Assembly: GCA_963422465.1 (NCBI GenBank)
Contig: OY730173.1
Span: 1,612,001-1,676,000, forward strand
Direction: 5' to 3'
Source of the DNA: Lichina pygmaea
Lineage: Eukaryota; Ascomycota; Lichinomycetes; Lichinales; Lichinaceae
Length of the DNA: 64,000 nucleotides
Below, piece by piece: positions 616 to 58,776 of the stretch. Each line of letters opens with the position of its first letter. Positions within the stretch are counted from its first letter, which is position 1. Made by a program: the position numbers and the translations under genes. The notes under the pieces were generated by a model. That model searched no databases. It was not told where the DNA came from and was given only the letters and a program-made list of their open reading frames with translations.

Positions 616-3135
616 CTACAGCCAGATATCGCCGCCTTCGCCGGCCTCCCAATGACGCCAGGCGTGCTCGTACGCCGTCTCGAGATCGCGCACCCAGCGA
701 CGCGTGTCGAAGAGCGCGCTGTGAAAGCGGTTCTCGTAGAGCAGACGACGGAGCTCGGCGAGGCGGCCGCGAGCCCGGCCGCTGCTGCGCCGTTGCCGTC
801 TCTGGTCGGAATTGCTCTCGCTGCTGTCGTCGTCGTCGTCAGCCGTAATCACGTCGTGGTATTCGAGTCCGTTGCCCAGCTCGACGGCTCGGTCCTCGTA
901 GTCGTTCTCCGACTCGGCGATGAGCTCCGTCGCCGCGCGCACGCCCTCGGCCGTCTTGGGCAGGGCGCCCTTGAGGATCGAGGCCGCCATGCGCGAACAC
1001 ATCTTGTATCGGTGCCTCGGGAGCGTGAGCAGCGGCGTGCCCGACCACAGCACGTCCGCCGCCGTCGTGTGCGCGTTGCACTCGGGCGTGTCGAGGAAGA
1101 GATCGCACACGCGCGCTCGCGAGATGTGTTGATGCTTCGGCGCCACGTCCGTGAAGACGACGCGCGACGCCACCTCGGGCCCGGCCCACATCTCCGCCGT
1201 CTGCTTGAGGTGACTCTCGCCGAGGTCCGGGAAGCGCAAGAGCCAGAGTACGGCGCGAGGGACCCGAGACAGGATCCGGAGCCAGGTGCGAAATGTGCCA
1301 GGATCGATCTGTAGGCGCCGATTGGTCAGCTGGGGAGGGAGAGAGAGAGAGAGAGAGAGAGGTGTTCATAGACGTGGCGAGATCATGGTAGAGACGAAAG
1401 ACAAGAGGGAGGAGGGCGAGGGCGATAGCACGTCAATGAACAAACCCCACCTTGTACAGCTGATTAAAGTTTGCCATGATGATGGCATCGTCTCTGATCG
1501 TGGGAAAGACTTCGCGGCGCATCGCCCACCGGCGCGTCTGCTCCTGCTCCCACGACAGCTGTGGCTCGCGAGCGTCGGGCGCGCTCTGCCGGTGGTCGCA
1601 GCAGAAGAAGGTGTCCCGCGCGAAGATGATGTTCTCCGAATAGACCCATTCGTCATGCTCGCCGTCGCCACCGCCACCGCCACCGCCGCCCTCCTGCGCG
1701 ACGCACGTCTGGTCGCCGAGGTCGACGTTTCGCCGCCACGGGCGGAGCGTGTCCAGCGGGATGGCCGTCTCGTCCGCGAACAGGTAGTCGCACCACTCGG
1801 CCCCCAGCGTGCCGGCAAAGCCCATGAACGACATCTGGATCGGCGCCGGCCGGGCCGCGAAGATCTCGTTCCGCGCCCCGCGCGTGTACCCGTTGAGGTT
1901 GACCAGGATGTGGATGCCGTCCTCGACGATCTGCCCCACCACGACGCCGGCGGTCCATCGGCTGACGTCGCGGAAGACGGGCGCCTCGCGCTCGATCTGC
2001 TGCCGGTGCACCGACTGGTCGCTCGCCGTCGTCGCGTAGCAGAACGCCTTGACTCGCCGTCGATCGTGCAGGCCGAAGACGGACTGCATCAGGTGAGCCA
2101 ACGGATGGTTGTTGAAGTCGGACGAGACGTAGCCGACGTTGAGCTGCGGCGCCGGCGGCGCCGGCGGCGGGAAGACGGTGTTGGGTAGCCAGCCGGACCG
2201 CAGCGTCGAGCACGATATCCTGAGCGCGTTCCGCTCCGAGATGCGACGGATCTGCCTCGGCGACAGCGGGCAGGTGAAGGTGTGGAACGGCAGCACCGTC
2301 GGCGCGGCCGGGACGGACAGCGTCGCGGGGAGCTTCGGGCGGGCGTAGTGCGACGGCGCGTGCGCCCGCCGACGCCGATACTTGTCCTGGTACCACTGCC
2401 ATCCCAGCCGCTTGGCGGCGCGCTCGAGCAGCGGCACGATCTTGGCCGCTTCGCGCCGGCTGCCGGTCCAGCGTCGCAACGTCGCCTCCATCGCCTGACG
2501 CCGCTCGCTCGGCCAGCCGTGGCCGCTGTCCGCCCGCTCGAGCTGCTCGACCAGACGCTGGACCGTCTCGTCCGAGAGGGCGCCCCGGGCCCACGCCTCG
2601 CCTTGCGCCAGTTGCCTCTCGACAATGTCGACGACGCGCTTCATCCAGCCGGCGTTGGCGCCGCCCGAGGCCCTGGCGTCGACGAGCATGCCCTGATCGT
2701 CGACGTGCCATCGCTCCCGGGTCGGCGACCCTCCTCGACCGGCCCAGCCGCACACCGAGTTCAGGGCGTTGGCCAAGCCGCACACGGCCTCGGCGAAGTT
2801 GGGGCTGACGACGACGGCGCGGCGGTAGTATCCGATGGCGTCGCCGACCCGGCCTTGGTCCTTGACCGCGTTCGCCAGGTTCGCGAGCGCAATGTCAAAG
2901 TTCACGTCGCACGAGACGGCTTGCTCGTACATCTTGACGGCGGCGTTGAGTTGACCAATGTCCTTGAGCAGGCTGCCGAGGTTTGTGAAGAGGTGTGCGT
3001 GGCGGGAGTCCAGGTTGAGACCGTAATTGTAGTACGACAGGGCCAAGGCGACGCCGCTGCCGGGAGCAACGCCCGGTATGTCCGGCATCTGGCCGCTCGC
3101 AGTGCCGAGAGTCGGCGTCGGCCTGGTCACGACGG

Positions 3136-3227
<92 letters not shown>

Positions 3228-6200
3228 ACGCCGGCGAGAAGGATGCCGACATTGTTCGCCGTCGACGGGCTTGGGTGCAGCGAGAGCGAAAGATAATACA
3301 ACGCCAATATGTCCCGCACGCCCGAGCTCGTCTTGGGCCCGTCCGAGGCGCCGGACGACAGGCCGTCTTGGAAGATCTTGGCCAGCGAGAGCAAGGCGTT
3401 GCTCGTCGTCGACACGGCCGCTCTCTTCGACATCCCCTCTGGGATGGAGGCCAAGCCCGGCAGCTGGCCGTTGCTGGGGAAGACGAGCTTCGCCGTCAGC
3501 AGCGCCTTGTCCGGCGCGAGCGGAACCGGTTCCGTGCGCTGCTCGCAGCCCCCAAAGTTCGAAGGCGCGTTCGAGCCCTCGGACGCCATCCTCGACAGGA
3601 TCCGCTTGATGAGGCCCTCGATGCCTTGACCGCGTCTGCCCGTGGCGATCAGGACCACATCCTCGAAAGCTCGGGCGGCGCCGCTGTTGTCGCCCAAGGC
3701 GTAGAGCATGTTGCCCTTTGCGTGGACCAGGGCCAGGATCCGACCGTTCTCCGACCCCGGGATGGCGTAGCCGCTCGACCCGAAACCGGGCTGGCCCCGA
3801 CAAGCCCCAGTGTCCAGCGCGAACGAGGACCCATCGCCGTCGACATCGTAGTCGAAGATCGTTCTCGGAGACGTCTCGGCCGTGGCGGCGCTGGAGCAGC
3901 AACTGACTTCGCTGGCGGTCTCGCTGCCATGTTCGGCCGCCTTGAAGACGTCGCCGGGTCGTACGTACCTCAAGGAACGTTCGACGAATTCAATGATGTT
4001 CACCGCCTCCTTGCCCCGGTGATCGGTGCATAGAAGGCCGATGAGATGTTCGACGGCTTCGAAATAGCTCGGTCGTAGCTTCACCGATTGCAGCCAATAC
4101 TGCTCAGCCTCGCCGCGGCGGTTCAAAGCTAGCAAGGTCGCCGCGAGATTGGATATCGCCTCGACGTGGCTGCCAGGCCCAGACGGTCAGCAACAGCAGA
4201 CGGTGCACCCATTGGAGAAGATGGGAGTATGGACCACTCACGAGGGGTCCACCTCGAGGATCCGGGTGTACCATCCCAGCGCATCGTTGAAGTTGCCCAG
4301 GCCGTAAGCCAAGCAACCGGCCAGCAACATGCCGTCAATCCAGCCCCAAGCGCTCCCGACACACAATCTGCTGATCATCTCCAGCGCCGTTGCTGCCGCG
4401 CTCGCTGTTGACGTTTCCATCATCGTTAGTGGTGATGGAGAGAAGAAGAAAAAGAAGAAGAAAAAAAAAGGGGGGGGGGGGGGGGGGGACGATCAGTCGG
4501 GGGAACTCCCCAAACGAAGAAACGAGACTTGAATAAGAAAAGAGACTTGAATAGAAAGCGAGACGTGAATATGGAAGATACCCCCTAGGCACCGGGGGGG
4601 GGGGGGGGGGGGGGGAGGGGGCGAGGACTTACCCGGCGATTGCTGCAACGCGTGGGCATTGTCAGGCCGGCTCAATGGCGATAGGTGCAATTGGGGTCTG
4701 CGCTCGACCATCAGGTCGGCAGAATGATGGCGCTCGAGCGTGGCAGGTGCGACGTCGAGGGACAGACGGGTCGCAGACGACCCTCTCGGCGCGGTCAGGT
4801 GGTACCGACCGGATGCCTGAGGGTCGCTCTTCGTCTGATAGAGAGCGGGCTTCTGGAGACTGGGGGCTTGCATGCCCACGCCGGCGCCGGCGCCATGCGC
4901 CTGCGCTCGCGCCATCGGGCCCTCGGGCCCTGGCAGAACTTCCCGAGCCGGTCCGGAGAATTGAAAGGTCCGCTGGCGCGGAGGCTTCGGGTATATGGTC
5001 GGCTTGGGCAGCTTCAGGTGGGGATGGCCGCCCTGGGACGAGAGGGCCTCCACGCCCATACGCGTCTGATGCAGCGTCGTCAGCAAGTCCACGTAGATCC
5101 TGTGCGCCCAAGCCAGCAGTCTATCCTTGAACTGGCTCTGCCGGGATCCGCGCGCGGCCGGCTCGACCGAGTAAGCCGAGGAGACAGAACTCAAGTCCGA
5201 CGGGAACATGTCCTTGGAGGACGCGCCCGGTGGCGGCTCTGGGACGCCTGCCATGTCCGCAACGTGGTTACTGTGATGGAGCATCGGATATGATGGGTAC
5301 GGGTTCTGAGTCGGCACCACGTTCACCGGGAAAGCAGCGATCGGGTGCGCATCTCCAGGCTGAAACGGCACGGGCCTGCTGTGGTACTCGGCTTGCGATG
5401 GCGCCCAGTGAACGCCGTAGCTGCGGATGCCCGGCGGCGCGTTGACGGTCGGAGGGGTGTGCAGGGGCACGCTGCCCGGCGCGGCGTTCGTTGCCCCTGC
5501 GAGACCGGTCGAGAGCGGCGTCCAGGAGCCAAGGTGGTTCGGCGTAGGCATCTGGACAAAGGCATGGGCTCCATCCCACCGGGGCGGCGGCGTAGTCGTC
5601 GACGTCGTCGACGTCGTCGTCGTCGGTACGTGATGGTACCTCGGATCTCGGAGCGCAGCCGGTCGATAGGGGATGAAGACGCCATCGGGCCAATACGGGC
5701 CGTACGGCCCTTCACGGTTGGACGCCGTCGGCCCTATCGAGGGCTGATAGAACGGGTGAATGATGGCGGGAACCTGGACGCCGTTGGGCGCATAGAAGCA
5801 AGTGGGTTGCGCCGCAGTGCCTTGAATGAGCACCGAGTCGATGGCTCGAGGATACTGCGGGTCGAGGCCAGCCCATGCCATGCCACGATCGTTGCTACCA
5901 GCGCGCTCAGCGCCGGGGAACATCGGCGTGTCCCATGCCCCGCCAGATATCGTTGCCCGTCCCGGCTGGTGCTGATGCTGATGCTGATGCTGATGCTGAT
6001 GCTGATGCTGATGCTGGTGCTGGTGCTGATGCTGGTGCTGATGCTGGTGCTGGTGCTGGTGCTGGTGCTGGTGCTGGTGCTGGTGCTGGTGGTATGGCGC
6101 AACCGGGGGCGCGCCCCCCTCCTGCCCGTAGAAGACGGTCGGTCCGTGCGGCGACGGCACGACTGGCTCCTGCTGCGAAGGTTGGACGCCCGCATGGGGC

Positions 6201-6625
6201 GCCCGCAACAGTATGTGTTTTATCGGATGGGACTTTGTGTTCCACTCGTTCGATGCGCCGTCGTAGCCGGCCGACAGCGTCCCGTTAGGTGTCTTACGTC
6301 GAAGAATGTGCTCGGCGCGACGGGAAGACGACGATGACGACGAAGCCGAAGATGGATCGCACGCATCGAGGGTCCGGGCCTGGGAGGAGGAGGAGGCGGA
6401 GGACGGGTTTGCGCTTGTCGGCTGCAGCGGGAGCGCGTACTGAGCAGAGGTGTACATAGCCTGTCGAGATGGCCGGCGCGATTGCGGCAGGCGTCGAATG
6501 GCGAGAGAGCTAGTGGATGATGCTCCACCGATGGTCGGCTGCCGATCGGCGGATCCGTACGAATGGAAGTGGGGTGTGTATGCGGTGGGGCCCGGAAGGC
6601 GATGGATTGTAGCCTCGTGAAACAT
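616..6625 (-). CDS. O-GlcNAc transferase-like protein: TPR repeats plus GT41 catalytic domain
   Basis: Four exons, 6625-4633, 4404-4242, 4169-1451 and 1308-616, give 1855 codons with phases 1, 2 and 0 at the joins. The N-terminal ~660 residues are disordered and contain about 22 His-Gln pairs (residues ~178-222); they end near the conserved-looking LRRKTPNGTLSAGYDG. TPR-like helices run from exon 2, are broken by a run of about 30 Gln (~1032-1062), and continue as NLGSLLKDIGQLNAAVKMYE. The catalytic half has GYVSSDFNNHPLAHLMQS, ILVNLNGYTRGARNE, NFNQLYK (the UDP-binding Lys of OGT) and DTPECNAHTTAADVLWSGTP. The family moves GlcNAc from UDP-GlcNAc to Ser/Thr of nuclear and cytosolic proteins; activity here is inferred. 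Odd points: a Gly-rich insert in the catalytic domain (+1663-1690) and an Asp/Arg-rich insert near the C-terminus. ATG TTT CAC at 6625 is the first in-frame ATG. Confidence 0.94.
3138..3227 (-). repeat. CAG/CAA repeat encoding polyglutamine
   Basis: About 30 Gln codons between TPR segments of the OGT-like protein. CAA interruptions lie only at the 5' end of the coding strand's downstream flank; most of the run is pure CAG. Confidence 0.95.
5955..6090 (-). repeat. Hexanucleotide repeat encoding (His-Gln)n
   Basis: A CAC/CAT-CAG repeat of about 22 units in the first exon of the OGT-like gene. It stays in frame and sits in the disordered N-terminus. Confidence 0.95.
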
Positions 6626-9048
6626 GACGGCGTGCTGGGAATTGAATCCGGCAGGAGCTGGTGGTTGTGGCGGTGGCGGCGGTGGTGGTGGTGCTTCTTC
6701 CGCTTCTTCCTCACGTTCGACGTCGTCCTTGCCCTCCTCGATACCTTCGCCTTCGTCGCCGGGCGTCGTGCCGGCACGAGGCTGGGCCCTGACGGTATCG
6801 ATGAAGATACTTCGGCCACGAAGTCAGACGACGAGGCCGAAGCACGTCGTCGAGACCTCATCGATGCCGTTGGGTGCCAATGGCCGTTGGGTGCTCGAGC
6901 GGCCTCCCTCGTATGACATGTCCCGTCAGTGCGAACGAGGATCACGAGCTCCGCGACGGGCAAGGTGTGACGATTGAAGCGGTCCGTCGCATTCGCGCTG
7001 TCGCCGACAATGCTGGTATGTCAAGGCTCTTTAATTCTCCGACAGGCGATCCACATCGGGCTTGTCGCAAACCCCGACGGCGACGAAGGTCGTTCTCGCG
7101 CGGGGGGGGGGGGGGGGGGGGGGGTCGCCTTCGCAACGATCTGAAGACTATGGTCGTCAGCGACGGTGGAAAGGAGCTGAGGAAGGAGCAAGGCAGTTGA
7201 CGAATGATGGTGACGATGAGGACGGCGGCGTTGACGATGAGCACAACGATGCGGGTCTTGGCTCGTTCGTAACCACACGCTTTGTTCTTACGTACCATTG
7301 CCTGAGATGGCTTATGTCTCGACGGTGGATAACGTCGTACAGGAGCCGGGTGAGAAGGGAGTCCTCGGGAGGTAGAGGCGAGTACTCGGCGAGCTGGTTT
7401 GATGCCATGCCGTACGTAGATGATACTTTGAGCTACTTTGGTCGGGGCTGCCTTCGCCCGAAAATAGATGCGACTACCCAATGCGGCTCAGTGCGGCGGT
7501 GTTTAGGGGGGGGGGGGGGGGGCCAGATAGCCCCACAAGCCTGTTACTACCGAAATGTAGGCATTGAGGGTAGAGACCTTGAGGACTCGTAGACACAGGG
7601 CCAATCCGTGGCCGTCACAAAAAAGGGCCCCGTTTCTCAGCTTTGTCGGTGCGGTAGGTACGTACATACGTAGGGAGTGAAGTAAGCGGCTTACGGTATC
7701 ATTATGAGCGTACGAGTACTTCCGTACCCCTCAGACCTCGCACCTAGCCTAGCCTAGCCTAGCCCACAGTGCCTAGCCAGGCACCTGGGTGTCAACGGAC
7801 AAAACGCCACCACCGAAAGATCACTCCATACTGCTTTACAGCAAGCTTCCAACAAGACTTGCAAGCCAAGTCCTGCGCTCTTCAACATGAGCTGTTGATC
7901 ATGACTTCTGAACAGATTCACGTCAAGACCTTCAGTTCTTTCAACTTTTATTGGAGTGATGGAGAGGTGGTGCCACGACTTTTGGCAGGATGAAGTACTT
8001 ATGTAGATTGGAGTATCTGTAAGTCCAGTTGCCAGTGTGACAGGACTTCGATACTTTCTGGAGCAAGTCAGGTATAGTCTGCCTGCAGGTAAGTAGCACT
8101 ACCTGCAAGCATCACTACAGCCCCTTGAACTCAACAAGTCCCAAGATACGTAGGAGAAACAACAAAAGCGATTTAAAAAGTAGAGACCAGAAAAAGAATG
8201 GATAAGAAGAGACTGAAGGAGAGTGAGGGTGATGGCCAGTCCTATGTTGCAAAAGTTGTTACACAAAGGCTTGATCAAACACCCCTGCTACATACGTATC
8301 AGGTGCTGCAAGGTCTGTCTGTCTAGTACAAAGCAGGCCTGCAGGCTGCAGCAGCTGTCCTGTACGGGCAAGCGTGCTTGTTTGATGCTGCTGCTGCTGC
8401 TGCTACCGCTGCTGCCTGCGTCAGTTACGTGTCCCCTCGAGACTTCCATTCAATCGAACGAGGCAAACGGCACCTCCGCACAGTACGGCTGCGCTCGAGC
8501 AACGTACGTATGTAGGTGGCACGGAGTGCAAGGGCAGCCTACATACGAAGGTACGTATTACGTAGCGTAGGTCCCTAAAAGGACGTAACCGCACCGAGTG
8601 GATGCCACATCGTTGGTCGCAGGGACGGGAGACCGCCGTTGGAATGAAACGATGACCAACGTCAGCCGGTCAGATCGATGCAAGGAGTCCGGGGTGCCTC
8701 CTGTTGCATGGACCAATGGCAACCGGGCCCGGTGACGAGAGGTGCTTCCCCGCCCGTCACGCCGACAAATCGTCGTATGTAGACCGGATGATGATGGACC
8801 CCCGCACCCACGGCCGCGAGGCTCGAGGGATGCCGTGGTGAGTAAGCGGTCAACAGCGACTTCATCTCCTTTGCACCGAAAGCGACCGGAGCCATGAGAA
8901 TGCCAACCCGCGATACGGATATGGCAAGGCAGAGGCCAGAGTGTTGGCAAAGGTCTTTCCGAACGTGGGGCGCTCGATCGACGACGTCCTGATCACGTGA
9001 TGGGAACTAGGACGAGCAAAGAGAACTTGTATTTCATCGTGGAAGAGA
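6626..9048. other. Intergenic: 5' side of the OGT-like gene, 3' side of RPL12
   Basis: No supported gene. It holds G runs at 7102-7124 and 7506-7522, a GTACTTCCGTAC copy at 7716-7727, a short CCTAG tandem at 7743-7763, and a CTG run near 8386-8412. Frames at 7769-7993 and 8223-8570 show no recognisable protein. Confidence 0.6.
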
Positions 9049-30206: not shown

Positions 30207-31176
30207 AGGGCGGGCTTCGAACATTCCGGGTGCTCTTCTCCCAGCTGCCCCGTCAAGACGTTTATCTTTGGCACCTGTTTTCGGGCCCCCCCCCCCAAAG
30301 TAAGCGCCCCGCTAGCCCGTTCCAAGGATAGCCCTCGCGTATGGCCTAAGCCTAGCTGGGCGAAATCCCCCTGAAGCCCTACAGCACACTACGTGTGCAC
30401 CAGGAACGGCATAGTCCCAGCCGCCAGGAAAAGCCTACTCGTACGTATTACCGTCAGCTCCGCAGATATCTACACTCGTCCGTACGGAAGTGTTCGTGGT
30501 ACATACGTACGTTAGTACTTCCGTATATACGCGCCTATCGTACAGTAGTTATTACGAGTACATACGAAAGTACGTGCGAGTACAGCAGGCTTTGGGTACC
30601 TCAGTCGGAAGTAACAAGACGGTCGCTGTTCGAGTTCAAAGTCGTTCGTCGCAAGCGCCGCTTGCGACGCGATTGACGCCCTTTCCGTCCCCACCACCAT
30701 CCCCCCCCCCCCCCCCCCCCCCCGCGAATCTTCGTTGCCTGTATGGTTCGAGACGTGGGGCCAGTCGCTGTCGGCGCCCGTCAAATGGACGGCCTCGACG
30801 ACGCGCCGGTGCCGCCGTTCACGACAAAATCTCGAGTGATCGCCCGGCCGGTCAGAAAAAAGGTTGAAATGCGCGGGGAATCGACCAGCCATGGGCGCGA
30901 AAATCGACGGACAATCTCTGCTTCCCCGCGGAGAAGTCCTTGTTATTGTTGTTGTCGTTGTTGTCACTAGTGTCGAGGAATGTCTCGGGTCGCATGCCGT
31001 CTCTACTCGTTACCCCTGGCCTGGGGCTGCTACAATGACAGCTGCGGGCCAAAGTGGGATACTTGGAGTGTCAAAGACCAGGATGTCACGGCCATACCTC
31101 GCACCCTGGTACGGACGTTGTTCGATTGTCGTACAATGGCTTGGTCGAAGGTGGATTGCTGAGCAGTTTTTTCTAC
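29429..31176. other. Gene-poor block, left part
   Basis: Holds the longest homopolymers of the window: G at 29593-29619 and 30176-30204, C at 30701-30723. GTAC-rich patches lie at 30062-30120 and 30430-30600. I see no gene. Confidence 0.6.
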
Positions 31177-31953
31177 CGGACAATTACTCCGATGCCCCCC
31201 TCTATGCACGACTCTACCATGCCCCCCTCTGTGCCGTGTCTCACCTAGCCAAGCGAGGTACTTATCATGCCACTGAACTATCATAGTAACAGAAGTACCT
31301 GTCTAAAGTTAAGTTACAGTACATACCTCTCTTTCTTCCATGCCCCCCTCCTCCCGGTACTTAGTCTACTACCCAACAGTCATACAGATAAAGGTACCAG
31401 CTAAATTCAGAGTACAAGCGGGGTGACAGCAATAGCGACAACGACAGCGACAGCGACAGTGTGACACCAAGGGTAAAGGTGAGGCCAAGTGTGAGGGTAA
31501 AGGCGACAGTGACAGCAAGAGCAAGGGTAACAGTGAGGGCAGCGACAGCGACAGCACTGATGGCAAGGGTGATAGAGTAGCGTGGCACAGGTACTTCTGA
31601 CTTGTGTAGGTCTATTGCAATAGGAGAAGTACTCCGCTAAGTTTTCTTTTGACATACAGAAGAAGTAAGGTACTTTGATTTATATGAGTCTTAGTATGGT
31701 ACTGTAAGTATCGCACTAGCCCGGCTCCCTGTCATTGTAGGACAGATACCTCGCTTAGCTGAGTGAGACACGGGATGGAGGGGGGTATGGAAGAAAGAGA
31801 GGTACGTACTGTAACTTAAATTTAGACAGGTACTTCTGTTACTATGATAGTTCGGTGGCATGATAAGTACCTCGCTTAGCTAGGTGAGACAGCACAGAGG
31901 GGGGCATGGTAGATAGAATCATGCATAGAGGGGGGCATCGGAGTAATTGTCCG
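31177..31953. mobile_element. Mutator-type (MULE) non-autonomous foldback element
   Basis: A 777-base element with inverted arms of about 180 bases (31177-31356 and 31771-31953). Both ends start CGGACAATTACTCCGATGCC. It is flanked by the 9-base direct repeat TTTTTCTAC (31168-31176 and 31954-31962). Long TIRs plus a 9-base target duplication define Mutator-like elements. The arms carry repeated CATGCCCCCCTC and a TCTCACCTAG...AAGCGAGGTA word that occurs again just inside the right arm. The interior is a GACAGC-rich degenerate microsatellite (31423-31560) with no transposase frame. Confidence 0.88.
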
Positions 31954-31962
31954 TTTTTCTAC

Positions 31963-56520: not shown

Positions 56521-57219
56521 GCGGCCGATCATCTGCTTACTGCGCGGTAGGGGTCTCGACCACCACCGGTCTCGAAGAATCGTCTCACATTTCTCGACCC
56601 TGGGTGATGCACCCTGACGCGGTAGAATGCGAGGTGAGGGAGAGAGAAAGGCCAGCATTCTTCTGGTTTCAGACATCACCAGACCACCCCCCCTTCCCCT
56701 TGCGTCAGCCCATGGACCAACGGTGGTGAGGGGTGGGAGGCAGAGACGATGTCTCCTAGGGGACGTCTGGACCCGATTGATGCTCTTGGCTGACAGCACG
56801 CAGGGACGGCCGTGCGGCTATATAGAGAGCCACATCGCGACAGTTCTGGAGCCATCCCAGGACCCTCGAGGCAGAAAACCCGCCTTCTTCTCACCCTCAA
56901 GCCGAGAAGGGGCTCGTCGTCGCCCCGTTGCTTTCGTATCGTCCTGGGCAAGCCTCATCTGGATCTCGTCTTCTCCCGCCCTCGTCCTCGAATCATCTCG
57001 TTTGTTCTCCGTCGTGTCGAACCGCGGAGCGCGCCGGCCTCCCGCCCACATCGCCTCTTTCGACATCGTCGGTTGCGAGCCCTACCATCATGGGCTCCCA
57101 AAACGGTGTAGCAGGCCTGGTGCGTTTTGATCCGCCATCGTCTTGCCCCCTCACCAACCCCCATGTCGAGACGATTCGCGGTTACTAGAAGGTGGAGGCT
57201 GATCGCTCGCTGCTAGCAG
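54250..57219. other. Large intergenic region
   Basis: Contains a GGC run (54484-54503), an AGC run (56488-56519) and many short frames on both strands with no recognised family, the longest being at 54401-55075 and 56627-57130. An ATG frame at 55853-56098 has no domain. The last ~200 bases are the promoter and 5' UTR of the repeat protein. I support no gene here. Confidence 0.45.
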
Positions 57220-58776
57220 ATGCCTGCCGGCACTCTTCTCAAGGCCCTTCTCGCCGTCGTCGCTCTCGTGGGCGGCGTCACGGCCCAGGCGATCACGTCC
57301 ACGGTCACCGTCACCGAGACCCGTGTCGAGACGGCCACGGTCACGTCGATGTCCACCGTCTGGGCCATTCAGACCGACCTCAACACGGGTGCCCCAGGCC
57401 CGGTCGATACCGTGTTCGGCACGGCCGGCGCCGGCCAAGCGACGTCGACCTCCCTCGTCACCGGTGCTCCCGGCCCTGAAAATGTCGAGCTCGTGACCGT
57501 CATCGAGACGCGCGTGGCCACGGCCACGGTCACGATCGTGTCTTTGACGACCATGTTCACCGACGGTCCCTTGCCCGTCATGCCCGAACCCACCAGCCTG
57601 TCCGAACGCCTCGGCGGCATCCTCCCCGTACCGGCCATCAGCGCTCCCAGTCTCGCCGTCCCGAGCGTGTCACTGCTCAGCCTTCCTGTCCTCAGCGTTC
57701 CAACGGGCATTCTTGGTGGGGTCAGCGTCCCAGCGGTCAGCATCCCGACAAACCTCGTCCCTAGCGTCAGTGTCCCGACGGTCAGTATCCCGACGGTCAG
57801 TATCCCGACAGACCTCGTCCCTGGCGTCAGTGTCCCGGCGGTCAGCATCCCAACAGACCTCAGCGTCCCGGCAGTCAGCATCCCGACCGACCTCGGTGTC
57901 CCAGCAGTCAGCATCCCAACGGACCTCAGCGTCCCAGCGGTCAGCATCCCGACCGACCTCAGCGTCCCGGCAGTCAGTATCCCGACCGACCTCAGCCTCC
58001 CAGCGGTCAGCATCCCGACCGACCTCAGCGTCCCAGCAGTCAGCATCCCAACGGACCTCAGCGTCCCAGCAGTCAGCATCCCAACGGACCTCGTGGCAAC
58101 AGACCTCTTGCCAACGGACCTCGTGCCAACGGACCTCGTGCCAACGGACCTTGTGCCAACGGACCTCGTAGCAACAGATCTCTTGCCAACGGACCTCGTG
58201 CCAACGGACCTCGTGCCAACGGACCTCGTGCCAACGGACCTTGTGCCAACGGACCTCGTAGCAACAGATCTCTTGCCAACGGACCTCGTGCCAACGGACC
58301 TTGTGCCAACGGACCTCGTGCCAACGGACCTTGTGCCAACGGACCTCGTAGCAACAGATCTCTTGCCAACGGACCTCGTGCCAACGGACCTCATCTCTGG
58401 CATCAGCATCCCGGCAGTCAGCATCCCGACGGGCCTCGTGGAAACAAACCTCTTGCCCACGGACCTCGTGCCAACAGACCTTGTGCCGACGGACCTCATC
58501 TCTGGCATCAGCGTTCCCGGCGCCAGCGTCCCCTCTCTTCCACTTCCGACTCCCAGCGTCCCGAGCCTGGGTCTGCCGGACATCAGCGCTCCTGCGGTCA
58601 GCGTTCCGTCTCTCGGTTTACCTGGGGGGCTGCCTACGACGCTCGCCACCGTCCTTGTCCCCCCACCTGGCCTGCCCAATCCGCTTGTCCCATCATGCTC
58701 CGCCACCACGGTCATCTCTACCGTGATCTCCACCAGATCTCTGACCGCGATCCGCTTTGTCACCGTCGGGGCTTGA
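57220..58776 (+). CDS. Secreted protein made of nested VPAVSIPTDLS and LVPTD repeats
   Basis: A single exon of 518 residues. The start MPAGTLLKALLAVVALVGGV ending in TAQ is a good signal peptide. Residues ~24-125 are Thr/Val rich with two copies of a T-V-T-x-x-E-T-R-V-x-T-A-T-V-T motif. Residues ~135-290 are about 11 units of an 11-residue repeat (VPAVSIPTDLS). Residues ~290-400 are 5-residue units LVPTD arranged in higher-order blocks VATDL-LPTDL-(VPTDL)3-4. The tail returns to SVPxxSVPSLPLP and ends in a Cys-containing Ser/Thr/Val segment with no GPI signal. The repeats have no Lys or Arg and a uniform Asp spacing. It is probably an extracellular or wall-associated structural protein; the family is unknown to me. 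The antisense frame is also open because of the repeats and is not a gene. Confidence 0.83.
   Translation: MPAGTLLKALLAVVALVGGVTAQAITSTVTVTETRVETATVTSMSTVWAIQTDLNTGAPGPVDTVFGTAGAGQATSTSLVTGAPGPENVELVTVIETRVATATVTIVSLTTMFTDGPLPVMPEPTSLSERLGGILPVPAISAPSLAVPSVSLLSLPVLSVPTGILGGVSVPAVSIPTNLVPSVSVPTVSIPTVSIPTDLVPGVSVPAVSIPTDLSVPAVSIPTDLGVPAVSIPTDLSVPAVSIPTDLSVPAVSIPTDLSLPAVSIPTDLSVPAVSIPTDLSVPAVSIPTDLVATDLLPTDLVPTDLVPTDLVPTDLVATDLLPTDLVPTDLVPTDLVPTDLVPTDLVATDLLPTDLVPTDLVPTDLVPTDLVPTDLVATDLLPTDLVPTDLISGISIPAVSIPTGLVETNLLPTDLVPTDLVPTDLISGISVPGASVPSLPLPTPSVPSLGLPDISAPAVSVPSLGLPGGLPTTLATVLVPPPGLPNPLVPSCSATTVISTVISTRSLTAIRFVTVGA
57725..58092 (+). repeat. 33-base minisatellite encoding VPAVSIPTDLS
   Basis: About 11 in-frame units with single-base variation (GCGGTCAGCATCCC, GCAGTCAGCATCCC and so on). 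The array passes directly into the 15-base array. Confidence 0.92.
58093..58400 (+). repeat. 15-base minisatellite with 75/90-base higher-order units
   Basis: Units of GTGCCAACGGACCTC with a variant pair (GTAGCAACAGATCTC then TTGCCAACGGACCTC) that starts each higher-order block. Blocks span 5, 6 and 6 units, then a partial one. Confidence 0.92.

Follow-up and report, generated by a model that had tools for sequence, protein, structure and literature searches.

A probable Mutator-type inverted-repeat element and its dispersed, probably non-autonomous family in the genome of Lichina pygmaea

Introduction

What kind of mobile element is a short inverted repeat that carries no transposase, and which enzyme could have moved it? 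The question is raised by an element in a 64,000-nucleotide stretch of the genome of the ascomycete Lichina pygmaea (assembly GCA_963422465.1, contig OY730173.1), which is C5:1612001-1676000 in our numbering of the contigs and is referred to below as the window. A first-pass annotation of the window had described a Mutator-type element, suggested to be recently inserted and dependent on a Mutator-like element (MULE) that is or was active in the genome. In the present study we delimit the element, describe its family in the own assembly (32.47 Mb, 8 contigs) and compare it with published MULEs. We propose that it is very probably a non-autonomous MULE-type MITE, belonging to a family whose several subfamilies have the tip CGGACAATTRMTSCGRTRCCC in common.

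Results

Structure of the element

The element comprises 777 bases (window 31177-31953) and is bounded directly by perfect direct repeats of TTTTTCTAC, located at 31168-31176 and 31954-31962 and both read on the + strand. The left arm (31177-31356, + strand) and the right arm (31771-31953, - strand) show 92.4% identity over 185 alignment columns, with 167 of 176 aligned bases identical and 8 gap columns, that is, about 180 bases of terminal inverted repeat. The stretch CGGACAATTACTCC... adjoins the left duplication on its inside and has an exact inverted copy at the right end, and the outermost 32 bases of both arms are identical. These features confirm that the annotated element is real and was correctly delimited. 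The first 21 bases (31177-31197, + strand) form the tip CGGACAATTACTCCGATGCCC, a degenerate form of which occurs genome-wide. A search of the window for the 20-base end, tolerating up to 3 mismatches, recovers only the two tips, both exact, against a mean expectation of 0.00 in 100 shuffles.

The best 40-base match between the arms reaches 39/40, compared with 20-23 in 12 shuffles. A chance inverted repeat, or a palindrome arising from a local inverted duplication, is thus hardly credible; we found no support for it, the shuffles (n=12) reach at most 23/40, and it is refuted by the family described below, which is dispersed, has different flanks from copy to copy and shows 9-base duplications.

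The repeated words named in the first-pass annotation are present in the arms. With both strands counted, ATGCCCCCC occurs five times in the element, three times in the left arm (31192-31200, 31219-31227 and 31340-31348, + strand) and twice in the right arm (31899-31907 and 31930-31938, - strand), and TCTCACCTAG is present in both arms. On the right side, a segment of the arm is present in a further, incomplete copy of about 48 bp (31747-31794), which spans the inner boundary of the right arm and is absent from the annotation. The core (31357-31770) is devoid of a long reading frame and contains degenerate GACAGC / AAGGGTAA repeats at about 31425-31575. The longest ATG-started frame of the whole copy encodes 82 aa, in agreement with the earlier description of an element without transposase. 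The element strand folds into one very long hairpin (z -26; equalled by 0 of 20 shuffles) because of its inverted arms, and Rfam gave no match at the gathering threshold between 30500 and 32700.

Elsewhere in the window, the - strand encodes a Glycosyl transferase family 41 (O-GlcNAc transferase-like) protein with TPR repeats and a long glutamine run (1433-4186) and an open frame that includes an extended (HQ)n tract (4493-6823). An open frame on the + strand (57217-58776) consists mostly of VSIPTDL / LVPTDL-type repeats and perhaps encodes a surface protein.

A dispersed family with several subfamilies

A genome search with the left arm, as the annotation had proposed, yielded at least 48 matches including the two arms of the window copy (40 of 42 candidates scored). 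The degenerate 21-base tip CGGACAATTRMTSCGRTRCCC, with up to 3 mismatches, matches the genome 259 times (133 forward, 126 reverse), compared with 2 matches (1 forward, 1 reverse) for the same pattern read backwards. Searches with two subfamily representatives gave at least 108 and at least 83 matches, both lower bounds from the scoring of 40/95 and 40/93 candidates, respectively. Among the 100 of 259 tip matches that were listed, the tips group into the subfamilies ACTCCGATGCCC, AATGCGATGCCC, ACTGCGGTACCC and GCTCCGGTACCC, together with others.

The 19 copies analysed are 454-823 bases long, and their longest ATG-started frames encode 39-166 aa. The family therefore has the properties of a MITE, being short, without a long frame, present in many copies and provided with common ends. 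Within the tip, bases 1-9 show 95-100% conservation over 38 ends, a value biased upwards by the selection of the ends through their tips. Of 38 ends (19 copies), 30 have the word TGCCCCC within bases 27-75; 200 shuffles gave 0.6 on average and 4 at most. Since shuffles disregard common descent, we read this enrichment as retention and not as function.

A second type of inverted-repeat element, whose ends resemble CCCGTGCCACGGGGGG, lies within some family copies, as seen in L045 (about 2375-3190) and L060 (about 585-1375). By eye, the one in L045 is flanked by TA and the one in L060 carries a short, helix-turn-helix-like frame, for which there was no Pfam match.

Target-site duplications and nested insertions

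We compared the 9 bases outside each end in 24 copies with both ends recognised. Direct repeats are perfect (9/9) in 10 copies and match at 8/9 in 5, with neither in the remaining 9, so that 15/24 copies carry a recognisable 9-base duplication; 8 or more of 9 matches were reached in 0/552 comparisons of left flanks with the right flanks of other copies. Duplications thus recur well beyond the window. The flanks differ from copy to copy in this set, and sequence shared beyond the element borders was not seen. With up to one mismatch allowed, lengths of 8, 10 and 11 bases were found in 0/24 copies and a length of 7 in 1/24 (control 1/552). The copy in L034, among the nine with neither 9/9 nor 8/9, has an exact 7-base repeat. 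By eye, L037 shows no duplication at the tip and a 9-base match displaced 5 bases from the left tip, and L057, with 8/9 at the tip, also has a 9-base match 5 bases from the left tip. The duplicated targets of 14 copies contain 79% A+T, compared with 49% in the flanks. The 14 recognised duplications hold 5 mismatches in 126 positions, a figure biased low by the retention of matches of 8/9 or better. The 24-copy count leaves out the MULE regions L032, L063 and L064, the loci with a missing or unclear end (L048, L050, L051 and L056), L061, the interrupted copies in L062 and around L034, the interrupted host copy of L036, whose flanks are without visible duplication, and the second copy of L043.

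A nested insertion is present in L036, where a 657-base copy sits in GACAATTAC within the tip of another copy and is flanked by a clean 9-base duplication. When the inserted copy is subtracted together with one of the duplications, the end of the host copy can still be recognised, reading CGGACAATTAC-CGCCGTACCCC, and this nested insertion is an empty-site argument inside one genome. The copy in L034 is also nested; it lies in the terminal portion of another member of the family and has the 7-base repeat.

These data bear on the possibility of a Foldback-type element with composite arms, spread partly by recombination or replication slippage instead of by a transposase. The reiterated words in the arms, the extra partial arm copy, the very long hairpin (z -26, 20 shuffles) and the variation of arm length and identity among copies all speak in its favour; however, the fixed-length target duplications and the clean nested insertion point to a transposase-type strand transfer. 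Of the Foldback features, the reiterated words and the hairpin were observed and a regular tandem unit array was not. A Foldback structure is in any case compatible with a MULE transposase, both being described together for Tm1 of root-knot nematodes (PMC3169594), and we consider spread of the Foldback kind highly improbable.

Age of the insertions

The first-pass annotation took the many bases shared by the arms as a sign of recent insertion, an argument that fails. Identity between the arms of one and the same copy (first 180 bases, gaps ignored) amounts to 94.9, 96.6, 61.2, 75.3, 75.8, 75.9, 76.8 and 80.7% in 8 of the 19 copies, and the copies in L036, L041 and L047, at 76-77%, yet have perfect duplications. 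Part of this spread reflects rearranged or shifted arm segments and not base changes. With a range of 61-97%, perfect duplications at 76-77% and shifted segments, arm similarity is not a measure of age and provides no clock.

The closest relative found for the window copy, L033, is 96.8% identical over 532 bases and 90.4% over 812 columns, and L035 is 90.0% identical over 510 bases; these similarities neither show nor exclude a recent movement of the window copy. In the two subfamily searches the best match to the query was 95% and 94% among the candidates scored. The few mismatches within the duplications suggest that the insertions are younger than the split between the copies, as expected if cut-and-paste transposition renews the duplication at each jump.

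Search for a transposase

A transposase was not recognised in any family copy examined (19 copies by frame length, longer spans by reading), nor did we find a coding partner with the same ends among them; the full-length element with a MULE transposase that the annotation proposed to seek is thus missing from the copies examined. Reading of the long spans did not reveal a MULE, and the Pfam search covered selected frames.

Among the spans bounded by matching ends with a common duplication, the largest is C4:1558175-1571437 (13263 bases, from L044 4476 to L043 4138), which keeps TATATTAGT at both outer ends. Its long frames are gag/reverse transcriptase-like by eye, and we rejected it as an autonomous partner because it looks like an ordinary copy split by retrotransposons. 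The candidates C1:4873242-4875539 (2298 bases; zf-RVT hit of 19.3 bits, below the cut-off of 27.5) and C2:4529670-4532938 were discarded as well, their pieces resembling, by eye, a non-LTR retrotransposon. Similarly, C1:2804623-2805884 (L060) and a 1419-base copy in L045 are both enlarged by another inverted-repeat element, which is TA-flanked in L045 (by eye).

One MULE domain lies above the cut-off in the genome, at C2:4277477-4277743 (47.5 bits, cut-off 27.6), where a single frame piece matches both PF10551 and PF21056. All three forward frames of the surrounding stretch (L032:4148-6523) are interrupted by stops, 20-25 in each, although introns are possible. Inverted pairs bracketing this piece are 16-30 bases long and mostly G+C-rich, and none of the 25 out of 34 listed was judged to be its end pair. 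A 6-edit tip match at L032:3996 was rejected as a family end, since matches with 6 edits turn up in other loci too, at unrelated positions, and BLAST of the 19 family copies against L032 gave no match. Directly upstream of the MULE piece, L032 (C2:4272500-4282499) also holds a head-to-head inverted duplication of a Ser-rich coding start (3258-3997; 175-base arms, 89%).

A related locus was found on C1, where a match of 52 residues (71% identical) is contained in a stretch, C1:2445009-2445982, that resembles the C2 piece (70% over 979 columns) and is partly overlapped by a 248-residue open frame (C1:2445019-2445762). On the same strand, 4.5 kb from the first, there is a second MULE-related stretch, C1:2450441-2450594 (73% over 161 columns). 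Reading of the sequence around both the C1 and the C2 locus showed that family ends do not bracket either of them. The nearest family copy to the C1 pieces starts at C1:2451209, about 0.6 kb past the second stretch, and on the other side no family end was found down to C1:2441000. In the absence of a matching end there, we take the adjoining copy as nesting, which may be due to chance; a former coding family member at this locus, towards which the proximity would lean instead, is possible.

Two further inverted pairs were observed at C1. One, of 83 bases and 94% identity (C1:2450183-2451086, L063/L034), brackets the stretch at 2450441-2450594. This stretch may be nested in another inverted-repeat element or represent a capture by it. 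The other, with 207-base arms, 97% identity and 1719 bases between them (L063 3208-5479; L063 is C1:2443800-2450700), sits between the two MULE-related stretches, and the family tip was not found there.

The transposase class is unproven as long as no autonomous partner with the same ends is seen among the copies examined, which leaves some room for a non-autonomous element of another cut-and-paste superfamily (e.g. of hAT, KDZ or Merlin type) with a coincidental 9-base duplication. We consider this quite unlikely, given that the duplication measures 9 bases in 15/24 copies, that a MULE domain is found in the genome, and that the hAT dimerisation and KDZ models, neither with a working control, and the IS1595/Merlin model gave no match in the own genome. 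A FAR1 search, likewise lacking a working control, also gave no match.

Discussion

Despite the clear boundaries of the element, its assignment is to be worded with care. The combination of 9-base duplications, arm length, A+T-rich targets and a high copy number without a long frame fits a Mutator-type MITE. The copies examined contain no recognised transposase, so the MULE link is structural: it is based on the length of the duplications, the length of the arms and the composition of the targets, and the family is Mutator-type by structure and not a proven member. In the published MULE groups, duplications are of 8-11 bp where given, often 9, with one group listed without any, and the arms range from none to 640 bp (PMC6446971). 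The family described here shows the 9-base duplication (15/24 copies against 0/552 in the control), and the arms of about 180 bases agree with the long terminal inverted repeats of many, though not all, groups. The Mutator-type classification of the annotation is thereby upheld. A MULE transposase, either in the element or in a same-ended partner, was not seen among the copies examined.

We propose that a transposase made elsewhere would bind the tip, and perhaps also the subterminal arm words. The element would then be cut out of its donor site in a cut-and-paste process and inserted into an A+T-rich target cut with a 9-base stagger, the repair of the gaps leading to the duplication of TTTTTCTAC. 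Recognition by a MULE transposase is probable from the structure of the copies, and the partner enzyme may now be lost, broken or unrecognised. Of the annotated claim that the genome necessarily has, or once had, an active MULE, one part stands, in that some transposase must have acted, but the MULE sequences found are broken and unbracketed by family ends. It is unlikely, in our opinion, that all copies of a fungal element with more than 100 copies and several subfamilies are gene-less, their transposase coming from a locus without matching ends; the enzyme would then be either the product of a MULE gene, captured or host-resident, that acts in trans only, or a transposase too divergent for the MULE model.

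Comparable elements have been described in other organisms. Ac-mMITE / ml-MITE of pineapple is a MITE attributed to the Mutator superfamily, with 1435 copies carrying 9/10 bp duplications and an autonomous partner not found there; Ac-mMITE-1 has arms of 140-180 bp and a length of 510-570 bp (PMC8449440). By description it is similar to the window element, as a Mutator-type MITE with duplications in the 9-base range, similar arms and no autonomous partner found; it differs in being a plant element, with thousands of copies of which most lie in (TA)n microsatellites (PMC8449440). Tm1-ML of Meloidogyne has composite Foldback-like arms with a mean own-arm identity of 93.15%, MITE-like copies, and 8-10 bp duplications in 45/53 elements (PMC3169594). 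It shares with the present family the composite arms, the MITE-like copies and a duplication range spanning 9, but it comes from a nematode, and a Phantom-type transposase-coding partner with the same kind of ends was found for it (PMC3169594). Furthermore, no target consensus was seen for Tm1-ML, whereas the targets here are A+T-rich.

Among fungal MULEs, the Hop group and Phantom-Ca include ascomycetes among their hosts and have 9-10 bp duplications where given (Mutyl, Phantom-Ca), and the Hop subgroups have arms of 22-220 bp, those of Phantom-Ca being 34 bp long (PMC6446971). Those groups are classed by their transposase, whereas the element here is classed by structure alone. Mutator elements have also been reported from the fungus Mycosphaerella fijiensis (PMC3562529). 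Plant MULEs with multiple terminal inverted repeats, mostly non-autonomous elements, carry extra arm sequence inside the arm (PMC3310237); the repeated stretch is at least 100 bp in these (PMC3310237), compared with about 48 bp for the partial copy in the window element. The 14-base tip, in either orientation, was absent from the main texts of the full-text papers searched. The kind of element is ordinary, being known from plants and animals, and the family is new as far as our searches reach.

The Mutator-type MITE family reported here from a fungus is well delimited, its ends being defined and its 9-base duplications clean. In such elements arm similarity is not to be read as age. The presence or absence of each copy represents a ready marker for the comparison of strains, and the defined end sequence provides a handle for seeking the missing transposase.
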